From NCBI RefSeq assembly GCF_013359695.1, contig NZ_JABFMU010000032.1, positions 1-64,000 on the forward strand: 64,000 nt of DNA, given 5' to 3'. Made by a program: the position numbers and the translations under genes. This document shows, in pieces, positions 26,247-30,784 of this stretch; positions within the stretch are counted from its first letter, which is position 1; each line of letters opens with the position of its first letter. This DNA is from Pseudomonas sp. C2B4 (GTDB taxonomy: Bacteria > Pseudomonadota > Gammaproteobacteria > Pseudomonadales > Pseudomonadaceae). The notes beneath the pieces were generated by a model. It was not told where the DNA came from, ran no database searches, and saw nothing but the letters and a program-made list of their open reading frames with translations.

Positions 26247-27209
26247 ATGTCCGATAAAATTGAACTCCGCGCAGAGGTGCCGTCCGAATTGGGCGGCCAA
26301 CGCCTCGATCAAGTCGCCGCACAATTATTCGCTGAGCACTCGCGCTCGCGCCTTTCCGCCTGGATCAAAGACGGCCGCCTGACTGTGGATGGGGCGGTTA
26401 TCCGCCCGCGAGACATCGTTCACGGTGGCGCCATTCTTGAACTCACTGCCGAGCAGGAAGCTCAGGGCGAATGGGTCGCTCAAGACATTGCCCTGGACAT
26501 CGTCTACGAAGACGACGACATCCTGGTGATCAACAAGCCTGCGGGCCTGGTGGTGCATCCGGCCGCCGGCCATGCTGATGGCACCTTGCTCAACGCTTTG
26601 CTGCACCACGTGCCGGACATCGTCAATGTGCCCCGCGCCGGTATCGTGCATCGTCTGGACAAGGACACCACCGGTCTGATGGTGGTGGCCAAGACCATTC
26701 AGGCGCAGACGCAGCTGGTTGCGCAATTGCAGAGCCGCAGCGTCAGCCGCATCTATGAGTGCATCGTGATCGGCGTGGTGACAGCTGGCGGCAAGATCAA
26801 CGCGCCGATCGGCCGTCACGGCCAGCAACGCCAGCGCATGGCCGTGATGGAGGGTGGCAAGCAGGCCGTCAGCCATTACCGCGTGCTCGAACGCTTCCGC
26901 TCCCACACCCATGTGCGGGTGAAGCTGGAAACCGGTCGTACGCACCAGATTCGCGTGCACATGGCGCACATCAACTTCCCGTTGGTCGGAGACCCTGCCT
27001 ACGGCGGTCGTTTCCGCATCCCTCCGGCAGCCAACCCGACCATGGTCGAGTCGTTGAAAAACTTCCCGCGCCAGGCGCTGCATGCGCGGTTCCTGGAGCT
27101 GGATCACCCGACCACCGGTAAACGCATGAGCTGGGAGTCGCCGTTGCCGGAAGACTTCGTCTGGTTGCTGACCCTGCTCAAGCAAGACCGCGAGGCCTTC
27201 GTCGGATGA
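26247..27209 (+). CDS. rluD: 23S rRNA pseudouridine synthase RluD
   Basis: A 320-residue enzyme that makes the pseudouridines of helix 69 in 23S rRNA (positions 1911, 1915, 1917 in E. coli). An N-terminal S4-like domain (GQRLDQVAA) precedes the catalytic domain, where D138 lies in HRLDKDTTG. Start 26247 ([12 protein letters not shown]) has a weak ribosome-binding site but is the family start. It overlaps pgeF by four bases. Confidence 0.95.
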
Positions 27210-27925
27210 GTGACTGGCTGATTCCTGACTGGCCCGCGCCGGCCGGGGTTAAAGCCTGCGTCACCACCCGAGCGGGCGGCGTCAGCCTGGCGCCGTTCGA
27301 CAGCCTCAACCTGGGCGATCATGTCGACGACAACCCCGAAGCTGTCGCCGAAAACCGCCGTCGCCTCACCGATCACTTTTCCATGCGACCCGCGTGGCTG
27401 CAGCAGGTCCACGGCATTGTCGTGGCCCATGCCGACCCGGATCAGGTGGTCACTGCCGACGCCAGCTGGACGTCGACCCCCGGAATCGCCTGCACGGCAA
27501 TGACCGCCGATTGCCTGCCTGCGCTGTTTTGCGACCGCGCCGGCACTCGCGTGGCGGCGGCACACGCAGGTTGGCGTGGATTGGCGGCGGGCGTGCTGGA
27601 AGCGACCCTCGACAGTCTGGCCGTGCCACCTGCCGAGGTGCTGGTCTGGCTTGGCCCGGCCATTGGCCCGCAAGCCTTTGAAGTCGGCCCCGAAGTGCGC
27701 GAAACCTTCGTTGAGCAATTGCCTGAGGCTGCCGAAGCCTTCGTGCCGAGTCAAAACGAAGGCAAGTTCATGGCCGACATCTATAGGTTGGCGCGCTTGC
27801 GTCTGGCAGCTCGTGGTGTCACCGCTGTTTATGGTGGCGGTTTCTGCACCGTGACCGACCCGCGCTTCTTTTCTTATCGTCGTAGTCCCCGCACCGGACG
27901 ATTTGCTTCCTTGATCTGGCTTTAG
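27206..27925 (+). CDS. pgeF: Purine nucleoside phosphorylase / polyphenol-oxidase-family protein (YfiH)
   Basis: A 239-residue DUF152 protein. The metal-binding His and Cys residues are visible in LQQVHG, MTADCLPALF and AAHAGWRGLAAG. Relatives act as zinc-dependent purine nucleoside phosphorylases or peptidoglycan-editing factors, and older records call them laccase. The rluD-pgeF pair with an ATGA overlap, followed by clpB, is conserved in gammaproteobacteria. A long palindrome starts with the base after the stop codon. Confidence 0.9.
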   Translation: MSDWLIPDWPAPAGVKACVTTRAGGVSLAPFDSLNLGDHVDDNPEAVAENRRRLTDHFSMRPAWLQQVHGIVVAHADPDQVVTADASWTSTPGIACTAMTADCLPALFCDRAGTRVAAAHAGWRGLAAGVLEATLDSLAVPPAEVLVWLGPAIGPQAFEVGPEVRETFVEQLPEAAEAFVPSQNEGKFMADIYRLARLRLAARGVTAVYGGGFCTVTDPRFFSYRRSPRTGRFASLIWL

Positions 27926-28081
27926 TGCCCTATCTCACGAAGCCTGTTCCTTTTTGACGGTGTCTGTTGCCGTCATGCTGCGTTGCCGCTCCTCGCCATA
28001 GCGGGCTATGACTCGTCGCGGCGCCTTGCCTGACGACAACAGCCACTCGTCAAATGAGGAACGCCTTCGTGAGATAGGGCA
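27926..28081. repeat. 156-bp near-perfect palindrome
   Basis: The outer arms TGCCCTATCTCACGAAG (27926 on) and CTTCGTGAGATAGGGCA (to 28081) pair, and the pairing continues inward (TTTGACG / CGTCAAA, CTGTTG / CAACAG) with mismatches to the apex CATAGC-GG-GCTATG at 27997-28010. The whole element folds as one hairpin of about 75 pairs. It has no open reading frame and no resemblance to the REP core. It lies between pgeF and the clpB promoter. Nature unknown: a MITE-like element or a repeat family of fluorescent pseudomonads are the options I consider. Confidence 0.85.
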
Positions 28082-28119
28082 CACGCTAGACTTCTCTGAC
28101 CTGCATCAACGTCACGACG

Positions 28120-28148
28120 CTTGAAACTCCCAGAATCGACCGCATCTA
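28120..28148 (+). promoter_or_regulatory. Sigma-32 heat-shock promoter of clpB
   Basis: CTTGAAA, 13 bases, then CCGCATCTA closely match the RpoH consensus CTTGAAA-N11-16-CCCATNT. It is 72 bases before the clpB start, as expected for a heat-shock gene. Confidence 0.8.
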
Positions 28149-28219
28149 TTGTGGTATCTGGCAGGTTTCTTCATTCAGGATGTTTTATAGGTCCGGCCTG
28201 CTCAAAAGGAAGGTGACCC

Positions 28220-30784
28220 ATGCGTATAGACCGTTTAACCAGCAAATTGCAGTTAGCGTTGTCCGATGCCCAATCCCTGGCCGTCGGTCTCGATCATCCC
28301 GCCATAGAGCCAGCACACTTGATGCAGGCCCTGCTCGAACAGCAAGGCGGCTCAATCAAGCCTCTGTTGATGCAGGTGGGCTTCGACGTCAACAGCCTGC
28401 GTAAAGAGCTGACCAAAGAGCTCGACCAGCTGCCGAAAATCCAGAACCCGACCGGTGACGTCAACATGTCACAGGATCTGGCGCGCCTGCTCAATCAGGC
28501 CGATCGCCTGGCCCAGCAGAAGGGCGACCAATTCATTTCCAGCGAGCTGGTATTGCTCGCCGCCATGGACGAGAACAGCAAGCTCGGCAAGCTGTTGCTC
28601 GGTCAGGGCGTCAGTAAGAAAGCCCTGGAAAACGCGATCAACAACCTGCGTGGTGGTGAGGCCGTCAACGACCCTAACCACGAAGAGGCTCGCCAGGCCC
28701 TGGATAAGTACACCGTTGACCTGACCAAGCGCGCCGAAGACGGCAAGCTCGATCCGGTGATCGGTCGTGACGATGAGATTCGCCGGACCATTCAGGTGCT
28801 GCAACGCCGCACCAAGAACAACCCGGTGCTGATCGGTGAGCCCGGTGTCGGTAAAACCGCCATCGCCGAAGGGCTGGCCCAGCGCATCATCAACGGTGAA
28901 GTGCCCGATGGCCTGAAAGGCAAGCGCCTGTTGTCCCTGGACATGGGGGCACTGATCGCCGGTGCCAAGTATCGCGGCGAGTTCGAAGAACGGCTGAAAG
29001 CGCTGCTCAATGAGCTGTCGAAGCAGGAAGGGCAGATCATTCTGTTCATCGACGAGCTGCACACCATGGTCGGCGCCGGCAAAGGCGAAGGCTCGATGGA
29101 TGCGGGCAACATGCTCAAGCCAGCCCTGGCGCGTGGTGAATTGCATTGCGTCGGTGCGACCACGCTCAACGAGTACCGCCAATACATAGAGAAGGATGCG
29201 GCCCTCGAACGGCGCTTCCAGAAAGTATTGGTGGATGAGCCTAGCGAAGAAGACACTATCGCCATCCTGCGTGGCCTGAAGGAGCGCTACGAGGTTCACC
29301 ACAGGGTGGCGATCACCGACGGTGCGATCATCGCGGCAGCCAAGCTCAGCCATCGCTACATCACGGATCGTCAGTTGCCGGACAAGGCCATCGACCTGAT
29401 CGATGAAGCCGCCAGCCGCATCCGCATGGAAATCGACTCCAAGCCGGAAGTGCTGGACCGTCTGGAGCGTCGCCTGATTCAGCTGAAGGTGGAATCCCAG
29501 GCACTGAAGAAAGAAAGCGACGACGCGGCGAAGAAGCGTCTGGAAAAATTGCAGGAAGAAATTGCTCGTCATGAGCGTGAGTATTCGGATCTCGAAGAGA
29601 TCTGGAACTCGGAAAAAGCCGAGGTTCAGGGTTCGGCGCAGATCCAGCAGAAAATCGAACAGTCCCGTCAGGAACTGGAAGCGGCCCGTCGAAAAGGCGA
29701 TCTGAACCGCATGGCCGAGCTGCAGTATGGGGTTATCCCGGATCTGGAGCGCAGCCTGCAAATGGTCGACCAGCACGGTAAAAGCGAAAACCAGTTGCTG
29801 CGCAGCAAGGTGACTGAAGAAGAGATCGCCGAAGTGGTTTCGAAGTGGACCGGTATTCCGGTTTCGAAGATGCTCGAAGGCGAGCGCGAAAAACTGATGA
29901 AGATGGAAAGCCTGTTGCACCAGCGTGTGATCGGCCAGGAAGAAGCGGTCGTGGCGGTGTCCAACGCGGTGCGGCGTTCCCGTGCCGGATTGGCCGACCC
30001 GAATCGGCCGAGCGGTTCGTTCATGTTCCTCGGCCCGACCGGTGTCGGTAAAACCGAGCTGTGCAAGGCACTGGCCGAGTTCCTCTTCGATACCGAAGAG
30101 GCGATGGTGCGCATCGACATGTCCGAGTTCATGGAGAAACATTCCGTGGCTCGCTTGATTGGCGCGCCACCGGGCTATGTCGGCTACGAAGAGGGCGGTT
30201 ACCTGACCGAGGCGGTGCGTCGCAAGCCTTATTCGGTGATCCTGCTGGACGAAGTCGAGAAGGCGCACCCGGATGTGTTCAACGTGTTGCTGCAAGTGCT
30301 GGAGGACGGCCGACTGACCGACAGCCATGGCCGTACGGTGGATTTCAAGAACACCGTGATTGTCATGACGTCCAACCTGGGGTCGGTGCAGATCCAGGAA
30401 CTGGTCGGGGATCGTGAAGCCCAGCGTGCGGCGGTCATGGACGCGATTTCTTCGCACTTCCGGCCGGAGTTCATCAACCGGGTCGACGAAGTGGTGATCT
30501 TCGAGCCATTGGCGCGGGATCAGATCGCCGGCATTACCGAAATCCAGTTGGGTCGCCTGCGCAGTCGTCTCACCGAGCGGGAACTGAAGCTGGAGTTGAG
30601 CCCTGAGGCCATGGATAAGCTGATCGCGGTTGGGTATGACCCGGTGTATGGCGCAAGACCGCTCAAGCGAGCGATCCAGCGCTGGATCGAAAACCCGCTG
30701 GCACAGCTGATTCTCTCGGGCCGATTCATGCCGGGAGATACCGCCAAGGGAACTGTGGAAAACGACGAGATCGTTTTCAACTGA
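28220..30784 (+). CDS. clpB: ATP-dependent disaggregase ClpB
   Basis: An 854-residue AAA+ hexameric chaperone that pulls proteins out of aggregates together with DnaK. Order: N domain (1-145), NBD1 with Walker A GEPGVGKT at 206-213, coiled-coil M domain (about 410-525, very charged), NBD2 with Walker A GPTGVGKT at 605-612 and a small C-terminal domain. All motifs are intact and the length is normal. AAGGAAGGTG precedes the ATG. Expression should be heat-induced from the sigma-32 promoter at 28120. Confidence 0.98.

Follow-up and report, generated by a model that had tools for sequence, protein, structure and literature searches.

The long inverted repeat between pgeF and clpB in Pseudomonas sp. 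C2B4 raises the question of what kind of sequence it is, how it came to lie there and whether its fold has a function. We examined it within a window of 64,000 nucleotides, the whole stretch of DNA that was analysed, and compared it with related sequences from the genus, the order, the class and the phylum. An earlier note on this DNA had proposed that the palindrome was a recent arrival, a mobile sequence or an insulator of clpB. In the following sections we present the evidence that it is most likely a non-autonomous miniature element (MITE) of the IS630 type, 158 bp in length.

The palindrome and its folding

The features of the locus on which this section depends are as follows.

27206..27925, plus strand: pgeF, the last codons and stop of which are altered by the insertion relative to empty relatives (TGGCTYGAACGCTAG)
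27923..27924, no strand: TA on the left side of the element, probably the left-hand copy of the target duplication, judged from the sequence and from the duplication at two other sites
27925..28082, no strand: the whole inverted-repeat element, its ends set by comparison with copies and empty sites
27997..28010, minus strand: apical stem, CATAGC-CC-GCTATG in the minus-strand reading, seen in the sequence, the fold and the covariance-model match
28120..28149, plus strand: promoter of clpB, sigma-32-like by its consensus, kept in most of the gaps printed, with or without the element
28220..30784, plus strand: clpB

The inverted repeat reads GTGCCC...GGGCAC, and its terminal repeats comprise 18 matching bases. 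The palindrome lies where the earlier note had placed it, with its outermost 17 bases free of mismatches, the apex CATAGC-GG-GCTATG at 27997-28010 and the CTTGAAA box of the clpB promoter beginning at 28120, 39 bases past 28081. The limits of 27926 to 28081 given there, directly after the pgeF stop, need correction by one base on each side. Since the element extends one base further left, its first base is the G of the pgeF stop codon TAG, which is completed by the TA at 27923-27924. The description "near-perfect" was too strong (the 156 bases are 76% identical to their own reverse complement), and in place of about 75 pairs the predicted minus-strand fold has 63. No gene is evident inside the element: apart from the end of pgeF, the overlapping open reading frames of at least 25 codons have 38, 49 and 38 codons. 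Nor does inspection reveal a REP core within it.

Folded as RNA, the plus strand gives -93.1 kcal/mol (z -10.4) and the minus strand -105.4 kcal/mol (z -12.4), with none of 200 shuffled sequences as good in either case; the minus strand is thus more stable by 12.3 kcal/mol. The interior mismatches are conserved, and on the opposite strand these positions become wobble or tandem G-A positions. On the plus strand, seven of the 160-nt stretches sampled in the window fold better than the one at 27921. The ungapped symmetry score of the element is 43 of 78, where five mononucleotide shuffles of the window reached maxima of 37-39; this is a poor measure, because the palindrome has offsets. The window also contains five REP doublets unrelated to the element, centred at 1018, 13208, 33330, 60490 and 62620, which are inverted pairs of the GTGGGAGCGAGCCTGCTCGCGAA type or a close variant. 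Three of these centres score higher in ungapped symmetry than the element (47, 45 and 44) and one scores the same (43).

Copies, empty sites and mobility

Both BLAST and the covariance model find a single copy in the genome of the window. BLAST detects relatives in 77 of the 199 genomes sampled from the genus, and covariance model R2 detects them in 84, where the numbers of copies are lower bounds (at least), four candidates per genome having been scored in nearly all. We obtained 145 distinct copies, 120 of them nearly full, of which 118 were distinct after alignment. Across the 20 loci printed the flanks vary, some of these loci lying at a common site. A search with an exact core pattern of 46 positions, of which two were open, gave 105 stretches in a collection that spans 84,980 species, and the 80 listed among these were all titled Pseudomonas. 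The earlier note had said that a single-copy sequence with arms not conserved in close relatives, and no drop in RNA-seq coverage, would be a chance or decaying structure; the single copy in its own genome agrees with that case, and the large family elsewhere does not.

A frequent form of the element ends is CTA-GTGTCC...GGACAC-TAG. A search for empty loci covered three sites with joined flanks, two of which gave readable empty loci. The first reads CTCTAGCTGAAC when empty and CTCTA-element-TAGCTGAAC when filled, and the second reads CCCTTTAGTCAG when empty and CCCTCTA-element-TGGTCAG when filled. A 2-bp TA target duplication is seen at two insertion sites other than that of the window; at the second of these the right copy has changed to TG. 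Mobility is the one of the three proposals that is supported, by dispersed copies, differing flanks, empty sites, the TA duplication and the IS630-like ends of the family. The sequence is short and non-coding, it has terminal inverted repeats, and its dispersed copies are found with filled and empty sites, as expected of a MITE.

Terminal repeats and a candidate mover

The ends of the window copy were compared with those of IS630 elements.

27925..27944, plus strand: left terminal repeat, matching an IS630 end at 12 of 20 bases (family consensus 17 of 20)
28063..28082, minus strand: right terminal repeat, matching an IS630 end at 12 of 20 bases

Within the genus the miniature element has at least three types of arm. 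The consensus ends of these types agree with the best IS630 end at 17, 18 and 17 of 20 positions, and none of 20,000 shuffles was as good, the comparison being with ten IS630 ends of the genus chosen by the author. Each arm type is closest to IS630 ends of the matching kind; for the first, to which the window copy belongs, three IS630 ends of two groups tie at 17 of 20. One genome rich in the third arm type (20 matches) carries an IS630 with such an end. A DDE_3 domain is encoded in 32 of the 199 genomes of the genus, and several of the DDE_3 transposons lie at CTAG, with ends such as GTGTGGTGTTTCACAAATAC, GTGTGCTGTCTCAGAAATAA and GTGGACTGTTTGGTTAGTTC.

No DDE_3 match was found in the genome of the window, which could have lost its IS630 partner. 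The right flank of the window element reads AC and not TA, and the agreement of its ends at 12 of 20 bases is as would be expected of a decayed copy. On these three grounds (the ends, the right flank and the absence of DDE_3 from its own genome) the window copy may be an immobile relic.

At three loci (L296, L297 and L298, at about 821-912) a remnant of a miniature element, lacking the core, adjoins an IS630 transposon, with a TA common to both. At L302 (about 820-911) a short palindrome that also lacks the core, with the ends CTAGTGTGCTGTCTCACAAACAA, adjoins a different IS630. This core-free palindrome folds alike on both strands (-62.3 and -60.8).

Occupancy of the pgeF-clpB gap

PgeF was found in all 199 genomes of the genus, and pgeF-clpB gaps were taken from 90 of these (the 30 best hits and 60 chosen by hand). 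Eighty-eight were readable, the other two having no clpB start within the stretch. Four contain the full element: the window genome (G000), G135, G036 and G011. Remnants lacking the core lie in three (G058, G005 and G128), and 81 have neither element nor remnant, three of these being longer, with other sequence. Two gaps (L071 in G173 and L107 in G102) hold other repeats that are REP-like by eye.

Many of the empty sites read TGGCTYGAACGCTAG, and the filled ones break this sequence near GA. In G000, G135 and the three genomes with remnants the first base of the element completes a TAG stop for pgeF; the pgeF frame of G036 and G011 continues into the element arm. In total, 10 of the 118 distinct near-full copies sit at this position. 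Among these ten, both sides have changed at 10 of 20 variable pairs, and the arms have diverged. A recent arrival, as proposed earlier, finds no support in a site shared by these ten copies, in the three further genomes with core-less remnants or in the divergence of the arms. We had first assumed a single old insertion followed by compensatory change, and dropped this claim because occupancy proved patchy, with at least five changes on a clpB tree of 47 rows, in which 13 of 44 inner branches are well supported and two of the four full copies were left out. Filled and empty genomes are intermingled, so that one old insertion, repeated insertion and loss by recombination are all possible.

The ten copies at this site and the strong hairpin between the two genes might be taken to indicate that the element was selected by the host as a terminator or insulator, keeping pgeF transcription out of clpB. 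This we consider very improbable, and the insulation of clpB proposed in the earlier note is left without support: the element contains no T-run terminator, its weaker fold lies on the pgeF strand, and of the 88 readable gaps 81 have neither element nor remnant and three have remnants only. The sole terminator-like site in 27800-28300 lies at 27813, inside pgeF, as expected by chance. Relative to the neighbouring genes, 50 sites, grouped from 111 copies with a predicted gene on both sides (the grouping is rough, as is the simple gene finder used, and a few clusters seem wrongly merged), comprise 19 (+,+), 12 (-,-), 13 divergent and 6 convergent arrangements, with no clear bias. A role as host terminator or 3′-UTR was rejected more generally, on the lack of a terminator in the element and these mixed orientations.

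A strand-specific core within the genus

At the centre of the element is a conserved hairpin of approximately 95 nt, common to the centres of the three arm types of the genus. It is more stable on one strand, which in the window is the strand opposite pgeF.

27957..28050, minus strand: conserved strand-specific core, matched by covariance model R3 with 102.4 bits
28022..28028, minus strand: CAAGGCG, the conserved 5′ internal-loop stretch of the core; of 55 distant matches, 46 have it exactly and the other 9 have close variants
27978..27985, minus strand: CAACGCAG, the conserved 3′ internal-loop stretch of the core, with CAACG in 37, CAACA in 10 and TAACG in 8 of the 55 distant matches

The strand opposite GCGTTGCCGCTCC is the more stable one in all 118 distinct near-full copies, by a mean of 18 kcal/mol. 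These copies were found by sequence and not by structure; they are related, so the cells counted below are not independent. Conserved mismatches of the plus strand (C-A and C-T/T-C) correspond to G-U and tandem G-A on the minus strand. Where the majority at a pair is Watson-Crick, there are 301 G-T cells to 43 A-C cells; the excess holds for GC-majority pairs (157 versus 13) and for AT-majority pairs (144 versus 30). Thirty-six pair columns lean to G-T and eight to A-C, and, with a slightly different consensus, 103 copies have more G-T and three more A-C. One G-T pair is fixed in 118 of 118 copies. A first model, R1, read the plus (pgeF) strand; A-C cells there outnumbered G-U cells, which revealed the opposite strand as the better one, and R1 was dropped.

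In the five REP doublets of the window the two strands are 0.2 to 10.3 kcal/mol apart, as against 12.3 for the element. Since they differ too, a strand difference is no proof in itself; it is the uniform direction that constitutes evidence. We consider both the dispersal of the element and the one-sided selection on its fold to be established or strongly supported; selection for a folded single strand is what we infer. Rfam 15 gave no match to the element above the gathering score, none up to an E-value of 5 and none at the core in 16 distant loci, and we found no description of the core in the open text of PubMed Central.

The many double changes in the arms could also arise if template switching kept the arms matched, the strand asymmetry being a by-product and the hairpin having no selected function. 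Quasi-palindrome correction is a known process. We regard this explanation as quite improbable here, because it would not preserve identical internal-loop stretches throughout the phylum, and because it leaves unexplained an excess of G-T over A-C that is tied to the orientation of the core.

The core beyond the genus

Class and phylum (Gammaproteobacteria and Pseudomonadota) were taken from the genus. Model R2, built from 39 sequences on the minus strand, matches 21 of 293 genomes of the order, three of them from the genus itself. When 18 loci from this search, one of them from the genus, were folded, all favoured the same strand, one of them by only 0.4 kcal/mol. Within the class, model R3 (built from 61 matches) has matches in 112 of 321 genomes, representing 90 of 243 genera; within the phylum the figures are 100 of 339 genomes and 51 of 177 genera, and some of these lie outside the class. 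The E-values of the covariance models are rough, and weak matches near 1e-4 may include chance ones. Covariation is strong, with 482 double-change cells versus 133 after shuffling.

Forty-five of the best R3 matches yielded 55 hits at E-values up to 1e-5, ten of which are second cores near a first one, nine of the ten in opposite orientation. None of these loci had been used to build R3. In their alignment, which was fitted to the model and so favours pairing, 91.8% of cells are paired versus 58.2% after shuffling and at most 44% when slid, and 504 double-change cells compare with 150 in shuffled alignments. The constant parts, CAAGGCG and CAACG, lie around varying stems. Of the matches found by structure, 57 of 61 and 52 of 55 show the strand preference, which is therefore not universal; the alignments A4 and A5 were fitted to the minus-strand model and lean towards that strand.

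When the palindromes of 83 loci were extended outwards, 43 measured 150-176 bp, 10 measured 112-125 bp and five had other lengths; 25 could not be extended, several of these being pairs of cores. The ends include CTAGTG, ATACCAAT, TATACCCG and AGGAAGCTCTGA, and some elements, among them ones from Pseudomonas, hold two inverted cores within one pair of ends. Of 76 open reading frames flanking the 45 distant loci, 68 were scanned (eight short ones were dropped), and at most three share a Pfam family. No transposase occurs among the 25 listed of the 89 Pfam families of the flanks. An association with one gene family was rejected, no family being common to the flanks. Given the differing ends and the lack of a common flanking gene family, the core is tied neither to a single set of ends nor to a single gene.

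No core match was found on plasmids or viral contigs, with the exception of a weak one in a faecal phage scaffold. This scaffold (L422; MT835554.1, 4466-4563) is an unannotated sequence from human faeces and carries a related element with CTAGTGTCCTGTCTCG ends. Its energies favour the plus strand (-106.0 versus -97.4 for a 270-base stretch), against the general pattern. Another copy of the core (L350; G270:C1:442267-442360) is located in an rRNA operon spacer that has two tRNA genes, the first of which it adjoins or partly overlaps.

How the element may work

In the mechanism that we propose, an IS630-type transposase would move the element in trans by way of its terminal repeats, and insertion would duplicate a TA, as it did at the two other sites and presumably at that of the window. 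Its strand-specific centre of approximately 95 nt is common to palindromic elements of many other Pseudomonadota with different ends. Because the centre stays the same while the ends differ, the hairpin behaves as a module that is kept through the exchange of ends. Its most likely working form would be a structured RNA made from the strand opposite pgeF, the conserved internal loops of which may be bound by a widely shared host factor. That the palindrome is a MITE moved by an IS630 transposase, with a core module that works as a structured RNA bound by a host factor, is in our judgement the probable explanation.

The core of the same mobile element could instead work as a folded single strand of DNA, at replication forks or during DNA transfer, for example, recognized by a recombinase, a primase or another host protein, as in REPIN or attC-like systems. 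Under DNA energy rules the same strand is preferred in 113 of 116 copies, so that the energies do not single out RNA. We found no sigma-70-like promoter in 27800-28300, which, together with the lack of a clear orientation to genes, leaves a transcript of the core strand as a surmise, and both points favour DNA, as do the inverted pairs of cores. The G-T pairs, however, are common, and one that is fixed in every near-full copy is at least as natural for RNA; the TA duplication, moreover, points to a double-strand DDE mechanism. We consider the DNA hairpin a close rival that is nonetheless unlikely, and place RNA ahead of it, not decisively.

The finding of a conserved core inside elements with differing ends suggests a shared, still unnamed function. 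More broadly, and with less assurance than we have in the RNA reading of the MITE, we tentatively suggest that a hairpin of approximately 95 nt, acting as RNA or as a single strand of DNA, has been carried across the Pseudomonadota as a module inside mobile palindromes, repeatedly swapping its transposon ends and doubling into inverted pairs, because it is recognized by a conserved host factor. If true, this would add a type of mobile structured element that is not yet catalogued, and roughly one third of the genomes sampled from the class would carry it. A miniature element is usually understood from its ends, and its interior is taken to vary freely; in this family it is the interior that is conserved, on one strand and with covarying stems and nearly fixed internal loops, and the ends that differ from group to group. 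The claim that elements of this kind have a structured function under selection is testable, and the model allows anonymous intergenic repeats of the Pseudomonadota to be annotated and checked in existing RNA data.

Relation to known elements

The nearest kinds to the window family, as far as the portions of the literature consulted describe them, are the RUP, ERIC and Correia elements. RUP of Streptococcus pneumoniae is an intergenic element of approximately 100 bp with TA ends, for which IS630-Spn1 is the proposed mover (PMC2229807). By description it is alike in size, intergenic location and its TA/IS630 character; a core common to different ends is not mentioned for RUP in the portions of that source consulted. 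ERIC (IRU) and Correia (NEMIS) are small palindromic intergenic elements with TA ends, the transcripts of which form long stem-loops, and the effect of ERIC on mRNA stability depends on its orientation (PMC2229807, PMC10969869). The likeness of both is again one of description, and the window family is distinguished by its strand-specific core, covarying stems and changing ends.

Within Pseudomonas, the REPINs of P. fluorescens are inverted pairs that form hairpins with compensatory changes and are described, in the part of the source consulted, as miniature mobile DNA (PMC3116915). They are tied to RAYT tyrosine transposases, unlike the window family, which has ends and a TA duplication of the IS630 type. 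MITEPsy1 of P. syringae moved in an assay, with CTAG or YTAA as the target. It and MITEPsy2 are miniature elements of the same genus, but according to the excerpt consulted their ends are IS5-like and Tn3-like, and MITEPsy1 makes a 4-bp duplication (PMC3189936). Unnamed stem-loop families of P. putida and P. aeruginosa have also been listed (PMC2267715, consulted in part). The repeats R178 (101 bp, with an 11-bp internal inverted repeat) and R6 (177 bp) of P. fluorescens, as partially described (PMC2718517), are compatible with the window element in size and in the layout of the inverted repeat, and either may be the same core.
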